DNA from: Alphaproteobacteria bacterium
GTDB taxonomy: Bacteria > Pseudomonadota > Alphaproteobacteria > Geminicoccales > Geminicoccaceae
NCBI GenBank assembly: GCA_027045875.1
Contig: JALUAG010000097.1
Coordinates: 1 to 36,124 of the forward strand
DNA: 36,124 nucleotides
Direction: 5' to 3'
Of this stretch, positions 18,651-30,827 are shown one piece after another. How positions within the stretch are numbered: the stretch's first letter is position 1; each line of letters opens with the position of its first letter. The translations under genes were made by a program, and so were the position numbers. Under the pieces are notes generated by a model that worked only from the letters and a program-made list of their open reading frames with translations, made no database searches and had not been told where the DNA came from.

Positions 18651-18877
18651 CATCTCCCCGGCCGTCGCCGGCACCTCGAAATCGGCCGCCGGCGCCGTTT
18701 CCGCGAGCGCTCTCGATCCGCGCTCCTGCATCCCGCCGCCTCCCCGAGCCGGACCGCGCGTTCAATCGCCGCGCTGGTTGCTTCCGGGAAAGCTTATCGC
18801 ACGGGTTTCCGGAGGCGGCCGTGTCCTTTCGGGACGGTCGTCCACCGGAGCGCCGACCTATGGACAGGGTTGGTGGA

Positions 18878-18892
18878 TTTGTATATGCAAAA
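18878..18892. promoter_or_regulatory. HutC-type operator in front of the liv-type transporter
   Basis: TTTGTATATGCAAAA is an A+T-rich imperfect palindrome (core TTGTATATGCAA, one mismatched pair) in GC-rich DNA, 50 bases before the binding-protein start. The 12 bases TGTATATGCAAA are repeated exactly at 25877-25888 in the hutG-hutC divergent region. The site contains a TATATG that could serve as -10 box, so a bound GntR-family repressor would block transcription. The assignment to HutC is inferred from the shared word and from the presence of hutC in the locus. Confidence 0.65.
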
Positions 18893-18941: not shown

Positions 18942-20105
18942 ATGGCAACGCGTCGTATGGTGACCGGACTGCTGCTCGGAACGGCGGTGGCGCTCGCGGG
19001 AACGGGCGTTCCCGGGGCGGGAGCCGCCGAGGCGATCCGGATCGGCTTTCACGCGCCGCTCACCGGCTTCGCCGCCGGCGACGGCAAGAGTGCGCGCCTC
19101 GGTGCCGAGCTCGCGGTGGAGCAGATCAACGCCGCCGGTGGCGTGCTCGGCAGGCCCCTGGAGCTCGTGACCTACGACGACCAGGCCAAGCCCGACCAGG
19201 CGGTGCCGGTGGCCAACAAGCTGCTCGGCGAGGGCATCGTGGCGGCCATCTCGGGCAGCTATTCCGGCGCCACCCGGGCGGCGGCGGCGGTCTTCCAGCA
19301 GGCCGGCATGCCCTATGTTTCGGCCTACGCCATCCATCCCGACATCACCCGCACCGGCGACTACGTGTTCCGCACCGCCAGCATGGGCGAGGTGCAGGGC
19401 CGCGGCGGCGCCAAGCTGATCGGCGAGATCCTGGGCCAGAAGCGGGTGGTGCTGATCACCCTCGACAACGATTTCGGCCAGTCGCTGGCCCGCGGCTTCA
19501 AGGAGAAGGCGGGCGACTTCGGCATCGAGATCGTGAGCGAGTACACCTACGGGATCAAGGAGCGCCAGTTCGGCGCCATCGTCGCCTCGGTCAAGCGCGA
19601 CGCCCCGGAGGCGATCTACGCCTCGGGCTACTTCTTCACCGCCGGGCCGCTGGTGAGCCAGCTCCGCGCCGGCGGCGTGCGGGCCACCATCGTCGGCCAG
19701 GAAGGCTACGATTCCCAGAATTTCATCGACATCGCCAAGGCCGCCGCCGAGGGGGTGCTGATCACCACCGCCCTCGATCGCGACAGCGATCGGCCCGAGG
19801 TGCGCAGCTTCATCGGCGCCTTCGAGGAGAAGGCGGGCTTTCCCGCCGACATGGTGGCCGCCTCCACCTACACCGCGGTGCAGGTGCTGGCCCACGCCAT
19901 CGAGCGGGCGGGCGGCACCGAGGGCAAGGCCGTTCGCGACGCGCTGGCCGCCACCCGGGACTTTCCGACCGCCATCGGCCCCGTCACCTTCAACGCGCTG
20001 GGGGAGATCTACAAGCCCATCCAGGTGCAGGTGGTGAAGGACGGGCGTTTCCGGCGTTTCGCGGTGATCGACGATCCGGTGCTGCTGGCACCGCCGGCCG
20101 AATAG
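18942..20105 (+). CDS. branched-chain amino acid-type (HAAT) ABC transporter, periplasmic binding protein
   Basis: This 387-residue protein has a signal peptide (MATRRM, hydrophobic LLLGTAVALAGTG, cleavage near AGAAEA). The mature part is a LivJ/LivK-like fold: IRIGFHAPLTGFAAGDGKSA, AVEQINAAGGVLGRPLELV, DDQAKPDQA, and ISGSYSGATRAAAAVFQQAG for ligand contacts. The ATG at 18942 follows GGAGACGAGG; the frame is open further upstream to 18870 but that part covers the operator. It is first of a five-gene operon. Because a HutC-like operator precedes it and hutU-hutG lie downstream in convergent orientation, histidine or urocanate is a better guess for ligand than leucine. That is inference. Confidence 0.9.
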   Translation: MATRRMVTGLLLGTAVALAGTGVPGAGAAEAIRIGFHAPLTGFAAGDGKSARLGAELAVEQINAAGGVLGRPLELVTYDDQAKPDQAVPVANKLLGEGIVAAISGSYSGATRAAAAVFQQAGMPYVSAYAIHPDITRTGDYVFRTASMGEVQGRGGAKLIGEILGQKRVVLITLDNDFGQSLARGFKEKAGDFGIEIVSEYTYGIKERQFGAIVASVKRDAPEAIYASGYFFTAGPLVSQLRAGGVRATIVGQEGYDSQNFIDIAKAAAEGVLITTALDRDSDRPEVRSFIGAFEEKAGFPADMVAASTYTAVQVLAHAIERAGGTEGKAVRDALAATRDFPTAIGPVTFNALGEIYKPIQVQVVKDGRFRRFAVIDDPVLLAPPAE

Positions 20106-20144
20106 GCGCGCACGCTACCGACGCTCTTCCTTCCGCGAGGCGGC

Positions 20145-21008
20145 ATGTTCTACGTCGAGCTCCTCATCGCCGGGCTCGTTCAGGGCGCGATGTACGCGAT
20201 GATGGCGCTGGGGCTGACCCTGATCTACGGCCTCCTGCGCATCCTCCACATCGCCCATGCCGCCTTCTTCACCCTCGGCGGCTACGTCGGGGTGCTGGCG
20301 GCCAACAGTGGCCTGCCGCTCGGCGCGGCGGCGGCCCTCGGCGTGCTGGTGGCGGCGACCGCCGGGCCCCTCGTCTACGGTACCGTCTACCGCCCGCTCC
20401 TCGACAAGCCGCCCTATGTGGCACTCATCGCCTCGATCGGTCTCCTGATCGCCATGGAGGACGGGTTCCGCCTGCTGTTCGGCCCCTACGGCCTGTCCTT
20501 CGCGGAGAACCCCTGGTTCGTCACCGGCCCCGATCTCGGCGGCATCTTCCTCAACTGGGTGCAGATCGCCCTCGGCCTCTCGGCCGTGCTGGCGATCGCC
20601 GGGCTCGGGCTGTTCGCCGTCGGTTCGCGGGCCGGGGTCGCCTGGCGGGCCACGGTGGACGACCCCGAGATGGCGATGAGCTTCGGCGTCTCCCCCGAAC
20701 GGGTGCGGCTCCTGGCCTTCGCCCTCGCCTCGGCGCTGGCCGGCCTCGCCGGCTTTCTCGTGGGTCTCCTCAACAACCTGATCGAGCCCGGCATGGGCAA
20801 CATCACGAGCTACAAGGGGCTCGCCATCGTCGTCCTGGGCGGGCTCGGCAACGTGCCGGGGACCCTGTGGGCGAGCCTCCTCCTGGGTGTCGCCGAGAGC
20901 TTCGGTACCATCTATCTCGACAAGATCCTGGATCGCGACGCCATCGCCTTCTTCATCCTGGTGGCGGTGCTGATGTGGCGGCCGCAGGGGCTCGCGCGGG
21001 GGCGGTGA
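20145..21008 (+). CDS. HAAT ABC transporter permease (LivH-like)
   Basis: This 287-residue integral membrane protein of the LivH family begins with LLIAGLVQGAMYAMMALGLT and LIYGLLRILHIAHAAFFTLG, the typical first two segments. RATVDDPEMAMSFGVSPERV is the cytoplasmic loop that contacts the ATPase, and IVVLGGLGNVPGTLWASLLLG is the late conserved segment. About eight hydrophobic helices are seen. The ATG at 20145 has GAGG 5 bases upstream, 39 bases after the binding protein gene. It pairs with the LivM-like permease that begins 4 bases after its stop. Confidence 0.93.
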   Translation: MFYVELLIAGLVQGAMYAMMALGLTLIYGLLRILHIAHAAFFTLGGYVGVLAANSGLPLGAAAALGVLVAATAGPLVYGTVYRPLLDKPPYVALIASIGLLIAMEDGFRLLFGPYGLSFAENPWFVTGPDLGGIFLNWVQIALGLSAVLAIAGLGLFAVGSRAGVAWRATVDDPEMAMSFGVSPERVRLLAFALASALAGLAGFLVGLLNNLIEPGMGNITSYKGLAIVVLGGLGNVPGTLWASLLLGVAESFGTIYLDKILDRDAIAFFILVAVLMWRPQGLARGR

Positions 21009-21012
21009 GGTC

Positions 21013-21855
21013 ATGGACGCCTATCTGACGAGCCTGCTCACCTTCGTCGCCATCAACGTGACCCTCGCCCTGGGCCTCAACCTGATCACCGGCTTCTGCG
21101 GCCAGGTGAGCCTCGGGCACGCCGCCTTCTTCGGCGCCGGCGCCTATGCCGCGGCGCTGGTCACCACGGCGGGCCATCCCTTCGCCCTCGGGCTCCTGGC
21201 GGCGATGGCGACGGCGGGCGTCCTCGGGCTCGTGGTGGGGCTCGCGAGCCTCCGGGTGCGCGAGGATTTCCTCGCGATCACCACCATGGGCGCGGGTTTC
21301 CTGTTCCTGGGCTTCGTCCGCAAGCAGGAATGGCTCGGCGGCGAGTTCGGCATCCCCGGCATCCGGCCGCCCTTCGGCCCCGAGGGCATGGCCATCCTCG
21401 CCGTCGCCTCGGCGCTCCTCGTCTGGGCCGCCGGCATCGCCGTGCGGCGGAGCTGGATGGGACGCATCTTCCTGGCCATCGCCCGCGACGAGGAGGCCGC
21501 CTCCAGCCTCGGCATCGACACCGCCCGCTTCAAGCTCGCGGCCTTCCTCCTGGGCACCGTGAGCGCCGGTCTCGCCGGCGCCGTCTACGCCCATGTGGTG
21601 CAGCTCATCGTTCCCGATGCCTTCGGCTTCATCCAGTCCATCACCATCCTGGCGATGGTGGTGGTGGGCGGCATCGGCTCCAACCTCGGCGCCGTGGCGG
21701 GCGCGGTGCTGCTGACCCTGCTGCCCGAGATGTTCCGCTTCGTCGATACCTACAAGCTCCTCGTCTACGGCGGGCTCCTGATCCTCGTCATGCATTTGAG
21801 CCCCGACGGGCTCGTCGGTATCGCCCGGCGCCTCCTGGGGGCGGTCCGGCGATGA
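21013..21855 (+). CDS. HAAT ABC transporter permease (LivM-like)
   Basis: This 280-residue permease shows the LivM landmarks LGLNLITGFCGQVSLGHAAF, REDFLAITTMGAGFL, AIARDEEAASSLGIDTARFK (ATPase-coupling loop) and AMVVVGGIGSNLGAVAGAVL. It is at the short end for LivM, lacking the extra N-terminal helices of the E. coli protein. The stop overlaps the ATPase start by 4 bases (ATGA). It forms the translocation pore with the LivH-like subunit. Confidence 0.93.
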   Translation: MDAYLTSLLTFVAINVTLALGLNLITGFCGQVSLGHAAFFGAGAYAAALVTTAGHPFALGLLAAMATAGVLGLVVGLASLRVREDFLAITTMGAGFLFLGFVRKQEWLGGEFGIPGIRPPFGPEGMAILAVASALLVWAAGIAVRRSWMGRIFLAIARDEEAASSLGIDTARFKLAAFLLGTVSAGLAGAVYAHVVQLIVPDAFGFIQSITILAMVVVGGIGSNLGAVAGAVLLTLLPEMFRFVDTYKLLVYGGLLILVMHLSPDGLVGIARRLLGAVRR

Positions 21856-22598
21856 GCCTTCTCGAGATCCGCGAGGTGAGCCGCGCCTTCGGCGGCGTGG
21901 TGGCGGTGGACCGCGTGTCGCTCGCGGTGGAGCCCGGCGCCTTCCTCGGGCTGATCGGTCCCAACGGCGCCGGCAAGACCACCCTCCTGCGCCTCACCTG
22001 CGGGCTGGAGCGTCCCGACGGCGGCAGCATCCGCTTCGACGGCCGCGACGTCACCCGCCTGCCGCCCCATCGGCGGGCCCAGCGGGGCCTGGTCCTGACC
22101 CATCAGGTGGTGCGTCCCTTCCGCGACCTCACCCTGACCGACAACGTGCTGCTGGGCGCTGCCCGCGAGTTCGGCCGGGATCCGCTGCGGGCCCTCGCCA
22201 CCTTCGCCTACCGCGACCGACGGGCGGAGGCGGAGGCGCTGCTGGCCCGTGTGGGCATCGCCGACTTCGCCGGCCGGACGGCGGCCGAGGTGCCCCTCGG
22301 CATCCTGAAGCGCATGCAGATCGCCCGCGCCCTCGCCACCGGGCCGCGCCTGCTGCTGCTCGACGAGCCGCTGGCCGGCCTCAACCAGACCGAGGCACGG
22401 GCGATCGGCGATCTCCTCACCCGCCTCCACGACGAGGGGCTCACGCTCGTGCTCATAGAGCACAATCTCGCCGAGGTGCTGCGCATCGCGAGGCGGCTCG
22501 CGGTCCTCGATCGGGGACGGCTGCTGGCCGAGGGGGAGCCCGAAGCGGTGATGCGGGATCCCGCCGTGCGCCGCGCCTATCTCGGGGAGGCGGCCTGA
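21852..22598 (+). CDS. HAAT ABC transporter ATP-binding protein (LivG-like)
   Basis: This 248-residue ATPase has Walker A GPNGAGKTT (36-44), Gln85 in the Q-loop, Walker B LLLLDEP (167-173), and the H-loop His in LVLIEHNLAEV. The C-loop signature, normally LSYGQ or LPYGxQRR in LivG, reads VPLGILKRMQIARA (147-160), so the canonical Ser/Gly-Gln is missing. The ATG at 21852 overlaps the permease stop. It should form a heterodimer with the LivF-like ATPase, whose signature is intact (LSGGEQQM), so one of the two ATP sites may be degenerate. Confidence 0.92.
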   Translation: MSLLEIREVSRAFGGVVAVDRVSLAVEPGAFLGLIGPNGAGKTTLLRLTCGLERPDGGSIRFDGRDVTRLPPHRRAQRGLVLTHQVVRPFRDLTLTDNVLLGAAREFGRDPLRALATFAYRDRRAEAEALLARVGIADFAGRTAAEVPLGILKRMQIARALATGPRLLLLDEPLAGLNQTEARAIGDLLTRLHDEGLTLVLIEHNLAEVLRIARRLAVLDRGRLLAEGEPEAVMRDPAVRRAYLGEAA

Positions 22599-23311
22599 TG
22601 CTGGAGCTCGCGCGGGTGTCGGTGGCGAGGGGCGAGCTGCGGGTGGTCCGGGATCTCGAGCTGACCGTCTCCGCGGGCGAAATGGTGGCCCTTCTCGGCC
22701 CCAACGGCGCCGGCAAGACCTCCACCATCATGGCGATCGCCGGCCACGTGCCGGTGGTGGAGGGCACGATCCGCTTCGAGGGACGGTCGATCGACACCCT
22801 GTCGCCGCCCGAACGGACCCGCCTCGGGCTCGGTCTCGTGCCCGAGGGGCGGCGCATCTTCCCCGATCTCACGGTGCGGGAGAACCTGGTGGTCGGCGGC
22901 TACCTGCTGTCGCGGGGCGAGGCCCAGAAGCGGGAACGGGAGGTGACGGCCCTCTTCCCCCGGCTCGAGGAGCGCCGCCAGCAGCGCGCCGGCACCCTCT
23001 CCGGCGGCGAGCAGCAGATGCTTTCGATCGCCCGCGCGCTGATGGTGCGGCCGCGCCTTCTGCTCGTGGACGAACTGTCCCTCGGGTTGATGCCGGCGGT
23101 GGTCGACCTCTGTTTCGAGGTGCTGGTGCGGCTCTGTCGCGAGCAGGGGCTCGCCTGCCTCGTGGTGGAACAGAACACCCAGAAGATCCTCACCGTCGCC
23201 GATCGCGTGACCGTGCTCTCCGCCGGCCGCACGGTCTGGCAGGGCACCGCCGAAGAGGCGCGCGCCGACGAGGCGCTGATCGACCGCATGCTGGGGCTGG
23301 AGGCCGGCTAG
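22598..23311 (+). CDS. HAAT ABC transporter ATP-binding protein (LivF-like)
   Basis: This 237-residue ATPase has Walker A GPNGAGKTS, LGLVPEGRRIFPDLTVRENL (the LivF Q-loop region), signature TLSGGEQQMLSIARALM, Walker B LLLVDELSLGL and the H-loop in VVEQNTQK. Note DEL in place of DEP after the catalytic Glu, which is common in LivF. The ATG at 22598 overlaps the stop of the preceding gene by one base (TGATG). It is the last gene of the transporter operon, and its stop lies in a hairpin at 23310-23329 facing hutU. Confidence 0.93.
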   Translation: MLELARVSVARGELRVVRDLELTVSAGEMVALLGPNGAGKTSTIMAIAGHVPVVEGTIRFEGRSIDTLSPPERTRLGLGLVPEGRRIFPDLTVRENLVVGGYLLSRGEAQKREREVTALFPRLEERRQQRAGTLSGGEQQMLSIARALMVRPRLLLVDELSLGLMPAVVDLCFEVLVRLCREQGLACLVVEQNTQKILTVADRVTVLSAGRTVWQGTAEEARADEALIDRMLGLEAG

Positions 23312-23333: not shown

Positions 23334-25010
23334 TCATCGATCGCCGAGAAACGGCAGCTCGAGCCCGTGCCGGCGGGCGCAGGCGATGGCTTCGGCATAG
23401 CCCGCGTCGGCATGACGCATGACGCCGCTCGCCGGGTCGTTCCACAGCACCCGCGCGATACGCTCGTCGGCCTCGGCGGTGCCGTCGCAGCAGATCACCA
23501 TGCCGGCGTGCTGCGAATAGCCGATGCCCACCCCGCCGCCGTGATGGATGGACACCCAGGTGGCGCCCGAGGCGACGTTGAGCATGGCATTGAGGAGCGG
23601 CCAGTCGGCCACCGCGTCGGAACCGTCGCGCATGCCCTCGGTCTCGCGGTTGGGGGAAGCCACCGAGCCCGAATCGAGATGGTCGCGGCCGATCACGACG
23701 GGCGCCGACAGCTCGCCCCGGCGCACCATCTCGTTGAAGGCGAGACCGAGGCGGTGGCGCTCGCCGAGGCCCACCCAGCAGATGCGCGCCGGCAGCCCCT
23801 GGAAGCGGATCCGGCGCCCGGCCATGTCGAGCCAGTTGTGGAGATGCGGATCGTCGGGCAGCAGCTCCTTCACCTTCTCGTCGGTGCGGCGGATGTCCTC
23901 GGGATCGCCGGACAGGGCCGCCCAGCGGAAGGGTCCGACGCCGCGGCAGAACATGGGCCGGATGTAGGCGGGCACGAAGCCCGGAAAGGCGAAGGCGTCC
24001 TCGAGCCCCTCCTCCCGGGCCACCTGGCGGATGTTGTTGCCGTAGTCGAAGGTGGGCACGCCCCGGCGGTGGAACGCCAGCATCGCCTCGACATGGGCGC
24101 GGATCGAGGCGCGGGCCGCCCGTTCGACGGCTCCGGGGTCGCTTTCCTGTCGTGTCCGCCATTCCTCGAGGCTCCAGCCCCGCGGCAGGTAGCCGTGCAC
24201 GGGATCGTGGGCCGAGGTCTGGTCGGTCAAAAGATCCGGCCGCACGCCGCGTTCGAGGAGTTGCGGCAGCACCTCGGCGGCATTGCCGAGCAGCCCCACC
24301 GAGAGGGGGCGCCGCTCGGCCACCGAGCGCTCGATCATCGCGAGCGCCTCCTCGAGGTCCGCGGTCCAGCGGTCGAGATAGCCCGTGCGGATGCGGAACT
24401 CGATGCGGGCCGGGTCGCATTCGACGGCCAGCAGCGAGGCCCCGGCCATGGTGGCGGCGAGGGGCTGCGCGCCCCCCATGCCGCCGAGCCCGGCGGTCAG
24501 GATCCAGCGGCCGGAGAGATCGCCCCCATAGTGGCGGCGCCCGGCCTCGACGAAGGTCTCGTAGGTGCCCTGCACGATCCCCTGAGAGCCGATGTAGATC
24601 CAGGAGCCGGCGGTCATCTGGCCGTACATCATGAGTCCGAGGCGCTCGAGCTCGTTGAAATGCTCCCAGGTGGCCCAGTGCGCGACCAGATTGGAGTTGG
24701 CGATCAGCACCCGCGGCGCCCAGCGGTGGGTGCGGAACACCCCGACCGGTTTGCCCGACTGGACGAGCAGGGTCTGGTCCTCCTCCAGCCGCTCGAGGGT
24801 CGCGACGATGCGGTCGAAGCATTCCCAGTTGCGGGCCGCCCGGCCGATGCCGCCGTAGACCACGAGCTCCTCGGGGCGCTCCGCCACCTCGGGGTCCAGG
24901 TTGTTCATCAGCATCCGCAGCGGGGCCTCGATCTGCCAGTTGCGGCAGCGCAGCTCCGCGCCGCGGGGTGCTCGGACGATGCGGAGGTTGTTGCGCGACG
25001 GCTCGCTCAT
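23334..25010 (-). CDS. hutU: urocanate hydratase (urocanase)
   Basis: This 558-residue enzyme adds water to urocanate to give imidazolonepropionate, using a tightly bound NAD. Its length equals the family norm (about 557). Typical segments are [37 protein letters not shown] (NAD loop), [48 protein letters not shown] with the conserved Cys, and [17 protein letters not shown]. The ATG at 25010 overlaps the hutG stop by 4 bases, so the start is clear despite the open frame continuing to 25904. Transcription would come from the operator-bearing region at 25875-25890. Confidence 0.96.
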
Positions 25011-25828
25011 GACTGGTCTCCGATGACGCGCCGTTCGAGGGTTTCGAGCAGGGCCGCGAGCAGCCGGGCGAGGAGCGGGCGCAGCCGTGCCGCGCGCGCC
25101 TCGAACCAGCTCCAGGGCGGCTCTTCCCGCATGTAGGTGGCCTGGGCGAGTTCCATCTGCAGCGCGGACACGCCCGTTTCCGGTCGGCCGTAGTGCCGGG
25201 TGGTGTAACCGCCCTTGAAGCGGCCGTCGGTGACCCACGTGTAACCCGCCGCCTCCGCCTCCGCGAGCACGCCTTCGGCGGTCGCGATCAGTGCCGGATG
25301 GGCGCTCCGCCGGTCGTTGGCGCCGAGGTTGAGGTCCGGCAGCCGGCCGGCGAACAGGCGGGGGATGCGCGAGCGGATGGAGTGGCAGTCGTAGAGCAGC
25401 ACGTGGTCGTAGCGCCGACGGAGCCGCGCGAGCTGTTCCTCCAGAGCGGCGTGGTAGGGCCGCCAGTAGCGCTCGAGCCGTTCCCGGCACTCGGCGGCGT
25501 CCGGCTCCCGTCCCGGGAGATAGAGGGCGCGGCCGTCGAAGTCGGTCGTGGGGCAGAGCCCGGTGGTCTCGAGACCGGGGTAGAGGCAGCGGTCGTCGGG
25601 TGGCCGGTTGACGTCGATCAGGTAGCGGGAGAAGCGGGCGCGGACCACGGTTGCGCCAGCCAGCAGATCGGCATAGAGGCGATCCAGCTGCCAGTCGGTA
25701 TCGGTACGGGCACGGCCGGTGGCGGTCAGCCGCGCCTCCAGCTCCGGCGGCAGCCAGGTGCCGACATGGGGCTGTGCCAGCAGCAGAGGGCGATCGCCCT
25801 CGACGACTTCGATGCAGGCCGGGTTCAC
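25007..25828 (-). CDS. hutG: N-formylglutamate deformylase
   Basis: This 273-residue N-formylglutamate amidohydrolase shows the family pattern [73 protein letters not shown] and [25 protein letters not shown]. It releases formate and glutamate at the end of the five-step histidine pathway, which implies a HutF deiminase elsewhere in the genome. The start at 25828 is probably GTG, read from the minus strand as the first codon of the conserved N terminus. It overlaps hutU by 4 bases and is divergent from hutC, 89 bases apart. Confidence 0.92.
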
Positions 25829-25874: not shown

Positions 25875-25889
25875 TATGTATATGCAAAT
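25875..25889. promoter_or_regulatory. HutC-type operator between hutG and hutC
   Basis: TATGTATATGCAAAT lies in the divergent hutG/hutC gap, 47 bases before the hutG start and 28 bases before the hutC GTG. Its 12 bases TGTATATGCAAA are identical to those in front of the liv-type operon (18880-18891). It fits an operator for HutC controlling hutUG and its own gene. Two in-frame ATG codons inside the operator (25876, 25882) are therefore not used as starts. Confidence 0.65.
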
Positions 25890-25917
25890 CTCGCATCTGT
25901 CCATCGAGGGAACGGAC

Positions 25918-26682
25918 GTGGCGGAGCCCGACGGCAGGACGCAAGGCGACGGAGGTACGGCTCGGCGGCCGCGGGGGCGGCTCCCCGCCTACGAGCGGAT
26001 CAAGGCGGCGATCCGGACCCGCATCCGCGAGGGAGAATGGGGGCCCGGCGATCCCATCCCCGGCGAATCCGAGCTCGCCCGGGACTTCGGCGTCTCCAGG
26101 CTGACCGCCCACCGGGCGCTGCGCGAGCTGGCGCGCGAGGGGGTGATCGAGCGCCGGCGGCGGCGGGGCAGTCGCGTCGCCGTGCGGACCGGCCGCGACA
26201 TCGTGCTCGAGATCCCGCGCATCGAGCGGCTGGTGACGGGTCTCGGGGCGGCCTACGAGCTGCGGCTCCTGTGGCGCCGCACCACCGTGCCACCGTCGGA
26301 GATCCGCGAGCGGCTGGAACTGGCGCCGGGGCAGCGGGCGCTCCACCTCGTCCTGCTGCATCTGGCGGACCGGCGTCCCTTCCAGCTCGAGGACCGCTGG
26401 ATCAATCTGCTGGCGGTACCGGAGGCGGCGCAGGCCGATTTCACCACCATCGCCCCCGGTTCCTGGCTGCTCGAGCACGTGCCCTGGTCGGAGGCCGAGC
26501 ACGTGATCGCCGCCGAGAACGCCGATCCCGCCACCGCCCGCGCGCTCGACATCGAGCCGGGCGAGGCGGTGCTGGTGATCGAGCGGCGGACGCGCAACCG
26601 GAACCGGGTGGTCACCTGGGCGCGTTTCCGCCATCCCGGCAGCTCCTATCGTCTCGCCACCGCCTTCGCGCCCCGCGCGTGA
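25918..26682 (+). CDS. hutC: histidine utilization repressor HutC (GntR family, UTRA domain)
   Basis: This 254-residue regulator has a GntR winged HTH ([20 protein letters not shown] at 22-41, then [20 protein letters not shown] and [15 protein letters not shown]) followed by a UTRA ligand domain ([40 protein letters not shown]-like region, and [11 protein letters not shown] at the end). HutC senses urocanate, which releases it from DNA. I chose the GTG at 25918, 8 bases after GAGG, rather than the upstream ATG at 25876, which lies inside the operator. The basic run RRRRRG in the wing is notable. It is divergent from hutG-hutU. Confidence 0.9.
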
Positions 26683-26787: not shown

Positions 26788-27759
26788 TTGAAGCAGGAAA
26801 CGACGACGCCGGCCGTGCCGGAATGGTTCGAGGCACGGAGAAAGCCCCGGGCCCGTATCGTCGCCCGCTGGGTGCCCTGGGTGATGGTCGGCATCCCGGT
26901 CCTCGTGCTGCTGGCGATCGTCGTCTACCCGACCGTCTGGATGGCCTATCACGCTTTCCACGACACCAACATGATGGGCCTCTTCACCGGCCGCTATGCC
27001 TACGTCGGCTGGCAGAACTTCGCCAACGTGCTGAGCGATCCCCGCTTCCACAACAGCGTCGTCAATCTCGTCTGGTACCTGACCTTCGGCGCGACCCTCG
27101 AGGTGCTCCTCGGGACCGCACTCGCCCTCATCCTCTACGAGCTGGTGCCGCGGCCGGGCCTGCGGGTTGTGCTGCTGGTGGCCATGGTGCTGCCGATGAT
27201 GCTGCCGCCCTCGATCGTCGGCGTGCTCTGGAAGTTCCTCCTCCAGGCCAACAACGGGGCGGTCAACCATCTGCTGATCAATCTCGGGCTGATGGCGCCC
27301 ACCGAGCGCATCGACTGGCTCGGGGTCGACCTCTCCCTGACCTCCCTGATCATCGCCGACGTCTGGCAGTGGACGGCGCTGCCGCTTTTGATCGTCTATT
27401 CGGGCCGGGTGTCGTTGCCGCCGGCGGTCTTCGAGGCGGCCCGGGTGGACGGCGCCTCGCGCTTCACGGTGCTGCGCCGTCTGACCCTGCCGATGCTCAA
27501 GGAGATCATCGCCATCGCCTTCATCCTGCGTTTCATGGACGCCTACAAGTTCGTGGACAAGGTCTACGTCATGACCTCGGGCGGCCCGGCCCAGTCGAGC
27601 GAACTCCCGGTCTTCATCGCCTTCCAGAAGGGCATCCGCGAATTCCAGATCGGCGAGGCGGCGGCCTACGCCTGGCTCATCTTCGTGGTGGCGGCCGTGA
27701 TCATCACCCTCTTCCTCCAGTACCTGAAGAGGGTGCTGAAGGCCCAGGCCTTCGCGTGA
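26788..27759 (+). CDS. carbohydrate-type ABC transporter permease (MalF-like)
   Basis: This 323-residue MalF-type permease has six main hydrophobic segments, starting with WVPWVMVGIPVLVLLAIVVY. The coupling motif EAARVDGASRFTVLRRLTLP (EAA loop) at about 210-230 contacts the ATPases. It lacks the large periplasmic loop of E. coli MalF. The start is TTG at 26788, preceded by GAGGGAGG 6 bases upstream. It opens a four-gene operon with a second permease and two ATPases; no binding protein gene is present, so it may be encoded elsewhere. Confidence 0.9.
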   Translation: MKQETTTPAVPEWFEARRKPRARIVARWVPWVMVGIPVLVLLAIVVYPTVWMAYHAFHDTNMMGLFTGRYAYVGWQNFANVLSDPRFHNSVVNLVWYLTFGATLEVLLGTALALILYELVPRPGLRVVLLVAMVLPMMLPPSIVGVLWKFLLQANNGAVNHLLINLGLMAPTERIDWLGVDLSLTSLIIADVWQWTALPLLIVYSGRVSLPPAVFEAARVDGASRFTVLRRLTLPMLKEIIAIAFILRFMDAYKFVDKVYVMTSGGPAQSSELPVFIAFQKGIREFQIGEAAAYAWLIFVVAAVIITLFLQYLKRVLKAQAFA

Positions 27760-27766
27760 GGGCGGC

Positions 27767-28606
27767 ATGAGCGAGACCTCGGCGCGACTGATCCGCATCC
27801 TGCTGCTGGCCTTCCTCGGGGTGTGGCTGTTCTTCACCCTGTTCCCCTTCTATTTCCAGCTCATCACCTCCCTGAAGCCGGTGGCCGAGATCAACCGTAT
27901 GGTCCCGACCTTCTGGCCGGAGGTACTGGTGCCGGGCAACTACGCCGGCATCTTCGCCGACCCCGGCAGCCTCAAGGCGCTCCAGGACAGCCTCGTCGTG
28001 GCCCTCGCCAACACCGCCCTGTCGCTGTTCCTGGGCACCCTCGCGGGCTACGCCCTGGCCCGCTATCTCAAGGGGCCGGTGGGCGAGAACCTCTCCTTCT
28101 GGATCCTGTCGAACCGCATGTTCCCACCGGTGGCGGTGCTCATTCCCATGTTCTTCCTGTTCGACAACACGCCCTGGGGCACCGACAGCTATTTCTCGCT
28201 GATCGTCCTCTATCTCGTCTTCAACCTGCCCCTCGCCACCTGGCTGATGATGGTCTTCTTCCGCGACGCGCCGGTGGAGCTCGAGGAGGCGGCCTACGTG
28301 GACGGCTGGAAGCCCTTCCAGGCCTTCTCGCGCATCACCCTGCCGCTGGTGCTGCCCGGCATGATCTCGGTCGCCATGCTGTGCTTCATCTTCGCCTGGA
28401 ACGAATATCTGTTCGCCAATCTGCTGACCGGCACCAACGTCAAGACCTTCCCGGTGCACATTCCGACCTTCACCCAGGGCAGCCAGACCCTGTGGAACCT
28501 GGTGATGGCCTTTTCGCTGGTGGCCATGCTGCCGCCGGTGGTGATGTTCATCCTGCTGCGCCGCTACATGGTCCGGGGCCTGAGCCTCGGCGTGGTGAAG
28601 GGCTGA
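27767..28606 (+). CDS. carbohydrate-type ABC transporter permease (MalG-like)
   Basis: This 279-residue permease has six TM segments, the first being [20 protein letters not shown]. It carries the EAA loop [20 protein letters not shown] and the conserved [14 protein letters not shown] segment. [16 protein letters not shown] marks the coupling helix. The ATG at 27767 lies 7 bases after the MalF-like stop. With its partner it would form the translocation pore. Confidence 0.9.
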
Positions 28607-28609
28607 GCC

Positions 28610-29713
28610 GTGGCGCTGCTCGAGATCCGCGGCCTTTGCAAGGCCTTCGACCATGTGGTGCTCGACCGGCTCGATCTCGACGTCGAGGCGGGGGAGTTCT
28701 TCGTCGTCGTCGGCCCCTCGGGGATCGGCAAGACCACCCTGCTGCGCTGCGTCGCCGGCCTCGAGACGCCGCAGGCGGGCACGGTGCGGGTGCGCGGCAC
28801 CGATGTCACCGGTCTTCCGCCCTACCGCCGCAATGTGGCCCTCACCTTCGAGAGCTACGCCCTCTATCCCCATCTCACCGTGTTCGAGAACATCGCGAGT
28901 CCGCTGCGCGCCCGCAGGCGGCCGGCCGAGGAGATCCGCCGCAAGGTGCGGGAGGTGGCGAAATTGCTGCGGATCGAGCACATCCTCGACCATCGGCCGG
29001 GGGAGATCTCGGGCGGCCAGAAGCAGCGCACCGCCCTCGGCCGCACCTTGGTGCGCGATCCCGACGTGTTCCTGCTGGACGAGCCCATCAGCCATCTCGA
29101 CGCCAAGATCCGCCACGAGCTGCGCGAGCAGTTCCACCATCTCGAGGAGCTCCGGCGCACCGCCACCCTCTACGTCACCCACGACTACGCCGAGGCGCTG
29201 TCGCTGGGCGACCGGATCGGCGTCATGGGGCCGGGTGGTCTGGTCCAGATCGGCACCCCGGAGGAGGTGTTCGAGCGCCCCCGCAGCCTGTTCGTGGCCC
29301 GGCATCTGGGCCAGCCCACGATCAACCTGCTGCCGGCCGCACTGCGCCGCGAGGACGGCCGGGTGAGCCTCGAGCTCGAGGGTTGCGGGGCGCGGCTGCC
29401 GCTCACGGCCGAGCAGGCGGCGGCCCTCTCCGCCCGCACGGGCGATCGGGTGGTGCTCGGCGTGCGGCCCCACCACATCGCTCTCGCCGACGGCGCGGCG
29501 CCCGCCGACGGTGGCCTGCTGGAGGCCCGGGTCGAGCTCTACGAGCCCCTGGGCGCCAAGGGGGTGCTCCTGGCCGAACTGGGATCGACGAGGCTCCACG
29601 TCCTGACCCCGATCGACGTCCATTTCCGCCCCGGGGAGAGGGTCCGGCTGGCCTTCGATCGCAGCGCCTTTCTCTTCTTCTGCCCCGAGCGGGGCGTCAA
29701 TCTGGTCGACTGA
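28610..29713 (+). CDS. carbohydrate-type ABC transporter ATPase 1 (MalK/UgpC-like, variant motifs)
   Basis: This 367-residue ATPase has the NBD plus C-terminal OB (TOBE) regulatory domain. Walker A is GPSGIGKTT (35-43), signature ISGGQKQR, Walker [11 protein letters not shown]-loop SHLDA, H-loop [10 protein letters not shown]. The Q-loop residue is Glu81 ([11 protein letters not shown]) where MalK has Gln. The start is GTG at 28610, just 3 bases after the previous stop. The next gene encodes a second, different ATPase with the same change, so the importer is expected to use a heterodimer rather than the MalK homodimer. Confidence 0.9.
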
Positions 29714-29717
29714 GCCC

Positions 29718-30827
29718 ATGGCCCGCGTGGAACTCGATCGCGTCAACAAGATCTACCGCGGCCGCGGCATCGAGGTGCATGCGGTGCGCGATCTGTCCCT
29801 CGCCATCGAGGACGGCGAGTTCGTCGCCATCCTCGGCCCGTCGGGCTGCGGCAAGACCAGCACGCTGCGGATGATCGTCGGGCTCGAGGACATCACCGGC
29901 GGCGAGATCCGCTTCGACGGCAGGCGCGTCAACGAGCTCGGGCCCGAGGCCCGGAACGTGGCGATGGCCTTCGAGACCTACGCCCTCTACCCCACCTTCA
30001 CCGTGTTCGAGAACCTGGCCTTTCCGCTCGAGGTGCGCGGCCTCGAGCGGGCGCGCATCGAGCGGGAAGTGCGGGAAATCGCGCGCCTCCTGGAGATCGA
30101 GGACATCCTCGGCCAGAAACCGGGCCAGCTCTCGGGTGGCCAGCAGCAGCGGGTGAGCCTCGGCCGGGCGCTGGTGCGCGAGCCGGCGGTCTTCATCCTC
30201 GACGAGGTGATGAGCCATCTCGACGCCCATCTCAAGTTCCGCATGCTGTTCGAGCTCAAGCGCCTGCACCAGCGGCTCGGCCGCACCATGGTCTACGTGA
30301 CCCACGACCAGGTTGAGGCGCTGGCCCTGGCCGACCGGGTGGCGGTGATGAGCAACGCCGAGCTCCAGCAGTTCGCCGACCGCGACGCCCTCTACAACCG
30401 GCCGGCCAACCGCTTCGTGGCCGACTTCATCGGCGAGCCGCCGACCAACTTCTTCGACGCCCGGGTGGTCGGCGAGGGGGGGGAGGTGCGGCTGGTGGTG
30501 AACGGGACGGGGCTCGCCTTCCGGCCGGACGGGCAGCGGCGGGCGGTGCTCGCCAGATCCGGCGCCCGGGAGGTGACGGTGGGCATCCGCCCCCAGAACC
30601 TCGGGATCGAGCCGCCGGACGGCGCCTGCGAGCGGATCGAGGCCGAGGTCGACATCTTCGAGTATCTGGGCGAGACGGCGATCCTCGCCCTCAGGAGCGG
30701 CGAGCGCGCGTTCCGCGCCGTCGCCTCGCCGCGGCACCGCTACGAGCCGGGAACGCCGCTGTCCCTGTTCTACCGGCCGCGCGACGTCATGCTGTTCGAT
30801 CCCGCCACCGGGGACTTCCTGGCCTGA
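29718..30827 (+). CDS. carbohydrate-type ABC transporter ATPase 2 (MalK/UgpC-like, variant motifs)
   Basis: This 369-residue protein has the same layout as the preceding one: Walker A GPSGCGKTS (40-48), signature LSGGQQQR, Walker B FILDEVMSHLDA with Val in place of Pro after DE, H-loop YVTHDQVEAL and a C-terminal TOBE domain (EVDIFEYLGETAILAL, YEPGTPLSLFYRPRDVMLFD). The Q-loop again has Glu86 (AMAFETYALYP). It starts with ATG 4 bases after ATPase 1 and ends the operon. The two ATPases are diverged, suggesting distinct roles in one complex, as in importers with two ATPase subunits such as GlpST. Confidence 0.9.
   Translation: MARVELDRVNKIYRGRGIEVHAVRDLSLAIEDGEFVAILGPSGCGKTSTLRMIVGLEDITGGEIRFDGRRVNELGPEARNVAMAFETYALYPTFTVFENLAFPLEVRGLERARIEREVREIARLLEIEDILGQKPGQLSGGQQQRVSLGRALVREPAVFILDEVMSHLDAHLKFRMLFELKRLHQRLGRTMVYVTHDQVEALALADRVAVMSNAELQQFADRDALYNRPANRFVADFIGEPPTNFFDARVVGEGGEVRLVVNGTGLAFRPDGQRRAVLARSGAREVTVGIRPQNLGIEPPDGACERIEAEVDIFEYLGETAILALRSGERAFRAVASPRHRYEPGTPLSLFYRPRDVMLFDPATGDFLA

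Follow-up and report, generated by a model that had tools for sequence, protein, structure and literature searches.

Gene content of the locus

The window, i.e. the whole stretch of 36,124 nucleotides analysed here, is contig C97 of genome G000, an alphaproteobacterium of the family Geminicoccaceae. It harbors the five genes livJHMGF (18942-23311), which encode a complete ABC importer of the LIV (HAAT) type with a Peripla_BP_6 binding protein, two BPD_transp_2 permeases and two ATPases, one of which carries a BCA_ABC_TP_C domain. The cluster is convergent with hutU and hutG on the minus strand, and these are followed by hutC (Table 1). The HutC protein combines a GntR winged helix (PF00392, 73 bits) with a UTRA domain (PF07702, 116 bits) and scores above the curated equivalog cut-off of TIGR02018; a second HutC model, NF011575, was not reached (131 against a cut-off of 424). 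As an alternative identity of the importer, the urea transporter UrtABCDE was rejected, since the UrtA model gave 73 bits against a cut-off of 492.75.

Two further observations concern the surroundings of hutC. After the recognition helix, the wing of the window HutC is very basic (RRRRRGSRV); many of the HutC proteins compared read QGVGTFV-like at this place. Directly after hutC and on the same strand lies a sugar-type ABC system (26788-30827) with two permeases and two MalK/UgpC-like ATPases, which is not preceded by the word TGTATATGCAAA described below.

Table 1 Features of the window and related enzymes encoded at other loci. Positions refer to the window unless a locus is given.
Feature	Position	Strand	Evidence
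Candidate -35 element for livJ, TGGACA	18861-18866	+	Conserved in the window, L010 and L011; putative promoter role
Predicted HutC operator before livJ, TTTGTATATGCAAA	18878-18891		Copy search, palindrome; identical in L010 and L011
livJ-like periplasmic binding protein, 387 aa	18942-20105	+	Peripla_BP_6, 210 bits; AlphaFold2 pLDDT 92.9
livH-like permease	20145-21008	+	BPD_transp_2, 131 bits
livM-like permease	21013-21855	+	BPD_transp_2, 144 bits
livG-like ATPase	21855-22598	+	ABC_tran and BCA_ABC_TP_C on the containing ORF 21330-22598; start inferred
livF-like ATPase	22598-23311	+	ABC_tran; LivF model 210 bits, below cut-off 441
hutU, urocanate hydratase	23334-25010	-	TIGR01228, 960 bits, cut-off 375
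hutG, N-formylglutamate deformylase	25007-25828	-	TIGR02017, 329 bits, cut-off 278.75
Predicted HutC operator between hutG and hutC, TATGTATATGCAAA	25875-25888		Copy search, palindrome; unchanged in L011
Candidate -35 element for hutG, TGGACA	25898-25903	-	Conserved in L011; putative promoter role
hutC, GntR/UTRA repressor	25918-26682	+	TIGR02018, 286.7 bits, cut-off 220
S-methyl thiourocanate hydratase-like enzyme	L012:14243-15928		Beside or near a LIV cluster of the same subfamily
S-methyl thiourocanate hydratase-like enzyme	L015:14103-15929		Beside or near a LIV cluster of the same subfamily
S-methyl thiourocanate hydratase-like enzyme	L020:14065-15891		Beside or near a LIV cluster of the same subfamily
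S-methyl thiourocanate hydratase-like enzyme	L163:17103-18752		Beside or near a LIV cluster of the same subfamily

A word shared by the livJ and hutG/hutC promoter regions

A sequence-only reading of this DNA had pointed to a word that occurs exactly twice, before the binding-protein gene and in the hutG/hutC region. Indeed, we found TGTATATGCAAA at 18880-18891 and 25877-25888, exact in both cases and without another copy in the window, and these two copies are also the only ones in the whole genome (3,527,208 bases in 110 contigs, 99.93% complete), where the reversed control word of TGTATATGCAAA has zero copies. The same reading had considered a chance 12-base match at both promoters unlikely, which is borne out by an expectation of 0.0026 copies per genome (first-order Markov model, window composition, 70.8% GC); for the window, shuffled sequence gives an expected mean of 0.05 matches even if two mismatches are permitted. 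When the pattern was loosened to TTGTNTANRCAA with one mismatch, no enrichment was apparent in the genome (five forward and two reverse matches vs nine and nine for the reversed control), so that there only the exact word has weight.

The first copy represents the core of TTTGTATATGCAAA, which is palindromic at 12 of 14 positions, and ends 50 bases before the ATG of livJ; the interval initially given for it, 18878-18892, was correct to one base. The second copy is located within TATGTATATGCAAA, palindromic at 10 of 14 positions, between the start of hutG on the minus strand and the GTG start of hutC.

Relation of the word to the HutC box

HutC of Pseudomonas binds TGTA-N2-TACA according to the available part of PMC12977541, and the consensus of the HutC subfamily is given as NyGTMTAKACNy in the corresponding part of PMC4494728. 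Both sites of the window read TGTA-TA-TGCA and thus match TGTA-N2-TACA at seven of eight positions, the deviation being one base in one half-site. This TGCA half-site may be related to the basic wing of the window HutC. At the two nearest livJ orthologues (L010, L011), CTATGGACAGG and GGATTTGTATATGCAAAACG are kept save for single changes outside the box, and the DNA further upstream of livJ has diverged around the kept box; at the hutG/hutC site, no change was found in L011. A genome of the same family, G015 (L103), has the variant TTGTATATGCAA directly before hutU and TTGTATAGGCAA directly before hutF, and several orthologous livJ promoters of more distant genera show the perfect form of the box. 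The conservation in near relatives, the sites of G015 and the perfect forms in distant genera argue that the TGTA-TA-TGCA variant would be a real box. The predicted operator is found at hut promoters and is conserved among relatives. Across 19 HutC loci (L090-L108, own locus included), a box within two mismatches was detected in five (L090, L091, L093, L103, L107). Several HutC loci of the same family (L095-L101, L104) have no box within three mismatches, from which we conclude that the operator is not universal even within this family.

Recurrence of the box upstream of livJ

Scanning genome contigs for LivJ yielded 80 loci, which include 22 close orthologues with 60-93% identity (L010-L030, L079) and one intermediate with 43% (L040), and a tblastn search of the plasmid set yielded copies from Thermus and Agrobacterium with about 48% identity. 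A class-wide survey of 385 genomes detected LivJ (E at most 1e-85) in 14, including the genome of the window.

A box, defined as at most one mismatch to TTGTMTAKACAA in the 350 bases before the livJ match, was found at 16 of 37 family loci compared with none of 56 distant LIV loci (Fisher p 3e-8, not corrected for relatedness); L024 and L030, which have no upstream DNA, were left out of the count and L050, whose upstream DNA is too short, out of its control. The 16 box-bearing loci span about ten genera or equivalent groups, and the perfect form TTGTMTAKACAA is present at seven of these loci. Since exactly two mismatches occur at none of the 37 family loci (vs two of the 56 controls), the distribution within the family is two-peaked. 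The distant controls stem mostly from other phyla, and for this reason a control with paralogues of the same genomes was added. In the 12 genomes used, the box precedes 12 of 12 family members but none of the 18 LIV paralogue loci that were returned among 3 to 29 paralogue matches per genome (best, three mismatches). These genomes were taken from the 15 that carry LivJ, 13 of which have the box before livJ; left out were the two without it (G246, G217) and G218, which has it.

No box close to livJ was detected at 21 of the 37 family loci. L014, L022 and L023 lack it there but have one at a nearby hut promoter, and for L012, L015, L018, L020, L025, L026 and more, no box was found anywhere in the sequence stretch scanned. 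All 15 LivJ-carrying genomes gave a HutC match with an E value of 1e-20 or lower, a level that is also reached by 19 of 60 relatives. In 11 of the 13 survey genomes other than the window's own, this match is located within about 8 kb of livJ; it lies about 23 kb away in G246 and on another contig in G037. Eight HutC proteins of LivJ-carrying genomes were scanned, and all of them pass TIGR02018.

These results also bear on the possibility that the word belongs to the core promoter or is bound by a regulator other than HutC, and that the transporter has nothing to do with histidine use. The word could overlap the -10 region at both promoters, and TGGACA is conserved upstream of both; a scan with the consensus sigma-70 pattern detected no promoter. 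However, a promoter element of this kind has to be reconciled with the absence of the exact word elsewhere in the genome and with the perfect HutC palindromes that other genera have at the same place, often near hutC and hut genes, and that are missing from all 18 paralogue loci. We therefore regard this explanation as very improbable.

hut genes next to livJ in other bacteria

Next to the box, we investigated the gene context of livJ with hutU, hutH, hutI, hutF, hutG and hutC as queries (threshold 100 bits). A homologue of hutU, hutH or hutI was found near livJ at 13 of 25 family loci vs none of 57 control LIV loci (1.03 Mb in total). At L163, one of these 13, the only match is of the S-methyl thiourocanate hydratase type; without this locus, 12 remain. 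At the other 12 family loci, no hut enzyme reached the threshold: L010 terminates in a hutU fragment scoring below it, L019 and L027 show nothing but a HutC-like gene next to livJ, and the remaining nine, two of which are short contigs (L013, L024), showed no hut match.

The gene orders vary between lineages. On plasmid pTthSNM7-6b of Thermus thermophilus the order is livJ-livH-livM-livG-livF-hutU-hutI-hutH, followed by speB on the other strand. BAL199 (L017) and a Minwuiaceae genome (L016) have livJHMGF-hutC-hutU-hutH with a perfect box before livJ, L022 has a box followed by hutI-hutG-hutU-livJ, and in L014 and L023 the promoters of hutC or of hut genes in the vicinity carry boxes.

HutC-like regulators are encoded divergently from livJ at L019:1684-2442 and L027:1554-2336, in two MAGs of Alphaproteobacteria whose scanned stretches contain no hut enzymes. 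The palindrome ATATGTGTACACATAA is located between regulator and livJ in L027.

Remaining hut genes of the genome

At least three contigs of G000 share the hut pathway: apart from the genes on C97, hutF is located on C74, and C64 carries both hutH and hutI, separated by about 16 kb. It had been proposed to look for further copies of the word in front of hutH, hutI and hutF; such copies are absent from the whole genome. Likewise, no HutC box was found in about 500 bases upstream of these three genes, the best matches to TTGTMTAKACAA having three mismatches for hutI and four for hutH, with none within four for hutF. The box is thus not present before every hut gene of the genome. The predicted regulon in G000 consists of hutC, hutGU and livJHMGF, and with hutH, hutI and hutF on other contigs and without a box, the HutC regulon would be incomplete here.

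Binding pocket and ligand of LivJ

The AlphaFold2 model of LivJ is confident (mean pLDDT 92.9), and its best solved relatives are LIV-type binding proteins (3hut, 4gnr, 3td9), and UrtA structures are also among the fold matches. In an alignment with the leucine-binding protein (LBP) of E. coli, residues W18, C78, T102 and N103 of LBP correspond to D47, Y107, I131 and H132 in LivJ, which retains S79 and E226 (its S108 and E254). We take E226 of LBP to hold the alpha-amino group of the ligand, and the other compared positions presumably line its pocket. A transporter specific for leucine, isoleucine or valine would not fit this pocket, in which D, Y, I and H replace the four LBP residues.

Within the family, D47, Y107 and H132 were found in 25 of 25 proteins and E254 in 24 of 25, with Q in Agrobacterium; in 13 further members (L165-L177), D, Y, H and E are present without exception. 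Among 55 distant LIV binding proteins, D47 occurs in one, Y107 in two, H132 in at most two and E254 in none, the commonest residue at position 254 being D (30 proteins). The 18 paralogues of the same genomes have D47 in one, Y107 in none, H132 in two and E254 in two cases, never together. The family set excludes L029, the distant control excludes L036 and L078 (stop in the translated stretch), and L012, with one internal stop in the translated stretch, was kept with X. As judged from these alignments, the LivJ pocket is marked by a family-specific signature (D47, Y107, H132, E254) that is unlike LBP. The nearest LIV paralogue of the same genome, with 39% identity (L203, G000:C23:33066-34181), and L202 of G002 have an unusual pocket as well, with I, D, T, H and D at positions 47, 107, 108, 132 and 254.

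Taking pocket and context together, an imidazole compound is the probable ligand. The retention of E254 would favor an amino acid, i.e. histidine over urocanate, and if the ligand is an imidazole, histidine is the likelier candidate. The operator could also be real with a transporter that carries another compound used together with histidine, e.g. formamide, glutamate or a product of peptide breakdown. The substrate range of LIV-type systems is wide and includes urea, as the UrtA structures illustrate, and the ligand is assigned indirectly from context; however, the pocket signature is nearly constant although the pathway ends differ (FTCD at L014, a speB-type gene in Thermus), and this would implicate the upper steps that these pathways have in common. 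We consider such another substrate improbable.

S-methyl thiourocanate hydratase-like enzymes near related transporters

The S-methyl thiourocanate hydratase model (cut-off 880) was passed by two enzymes, one next to livF in L012 (960 bits) and one in L163 (976 bits). The latter locus is located on pAt of Agrobacterium, where this urocanase homologue is encoded a few genes downstream. In L015 and L020, urocanase homologues next to livF score 864 and 866 bits, just below the cut-off. The pocket of L015 and L020 equals that of the hut-linked L018 and L023 except for position 46; that of L012 differs also at positions 130 and 131, and L163 has Q at 254. This suggests that the LivJ subfamily would handle a range of imidazole compounds.

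The pAt cluster of Agrobacterium additionally encodes an IclR protein, a DUF917 protein, a GST, a Zn hydrolase and a molybdopterin S/N-oxide reductase. It possibly represents a pathway for S-methylated thiohistidine. A search of the thiourocanate literature yielded nothing useful.

More broadly, and only tentatively, since we hold the following to be somewhat less than even in probability, the LivJ of the window may belong to a widespread LIV-type subfamily that is specialized in amino acids with an imidazole group and in derivatives of these, is marked by D47, Y107, H132 and E/Q254 and is mostly under HutC control in Alphaproteobacteria. Some lineages would have recruited it to the breakdown of S-methylated thiohistidine, with S-methyl thiourocanate hydratase encoded nearby, where E254 can become Q. 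We found no name for this LivJ subfamily in the literature searched.

Proposed regulation and transport

The claim that the transporter is tied to histidine or urocanate use, as put forward in the sequence-only reading, gains support from the recurrence of the box, the hut neighbors and the family-specific pocket of LivJ. In the explanation we favor, TGTATATGCAAA would be the operator word of the local HutC repressor, which would bind the two palindromes (Table 1), overlapping the promoter regions, and thereby repress hutC, hutGU and livJHMGF. Upon accumulation of intracellular urocanate, HutC would release the DNA, and both gene sets would be expressed. The LIV-type importer, whose binding protein lacks the leucine pocket, would then import one of the imidazole compounds of the hut pathway; L-histidine is the most likely of them, and urocanate the chief alternative. 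We have high confidence in this explanation as a whole. Binding and repression by HutC, the role of urocanate as inducer and the ligand are inferred. Directly observed were the two sites, which are unique in the genome and conserved, the identities of the genes, the repeated co-occurrence of the LivJ family with the HutC box and with hut genes, and the residues of the pocket.

A narrower form of this explanation, which overlaps with it, assumes the same regulation but urocanate, or another imidazole acid, as the physiological substrate, so that HutC would control only the importer and the steps from urocanate onwards (hutU, hutG). It would fit the lack of a HutC box at hutH in this genome, where hutU and hutG share their operator with the transporter, as well as those family members that adjoin an S-methyl thiourocanate hydratase instead of or beside a canonical urocanase. 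The 24 of 25 family proteins with E254, aligned with the LBP residue that presumably holds the alpha-amino group, argue against it, as does hutH, which is needed only for histidine and yet is part of the Thermus operon and of several other loci. We hold this narrower form to be unlikely.

Relation to known systems and significance

With LivJHMGF of E. coli, the window transporter shares the five-gene architecture, the Peripla_BP_6 fold and the residues aligned with S79 and E226 of LBP, and it differs in the pocket (D47, Y107, I131, H132), the hut gene context and the predicted HutC operator. Histidine and urocanate are taken up by HutXWV and HutT-type systems in Pseudomonas and rhizobia. These resemble the window system in that predicted histidine or urocanate uptake is linked to hut regulation, but they are transporter families that we take to be unrelated to its LIV type. 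HutTh and HutTu are named in the available part of PMC12977541.

For the HutC regulon of Proteobacteria, the available text of Leyn et al. 2016 (PMC5343134) names as transporters HisT, HisJMPQ, HutXYZ, HisXYZ, a TonB-dependent transporter and the COG2814, COG3314 and COG1457 permeases; its passages on HutC name no LIV-type system and do not state the protein family of HisXYZ. As far as that text goes, the window resembles the known regulon in combining a HutC repressor and hut catabolic genes with an uptake system predicted to be co-controlled, but differs in that the transporter is of the LIV type. A HutC-controlled LIV-type system with hut genes was not found in titles and abstracts of the open-access literature searched, and the available part of PMC9007349 contains nothing on such a system. 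Both the regulon of HutC and importers of the LIV type are already known; what appears to be new, as far as the literature searched goes, is the predicted LIV-type branch of this regulon.

LIV-type binding proteins are commonly annotated by default as parts of branched-chain amino acid transporters. Here, a regulator site together with a near-constant pocket signature leads to a specific substrate prediction for a subfamily that ranges from Alphaproteobacteria to a Thermus plasmid. If true, the HutC regulon would gain one more type of transporter, and the way nutrient uptake is annotated would be corrected for many uncultured bacteria.
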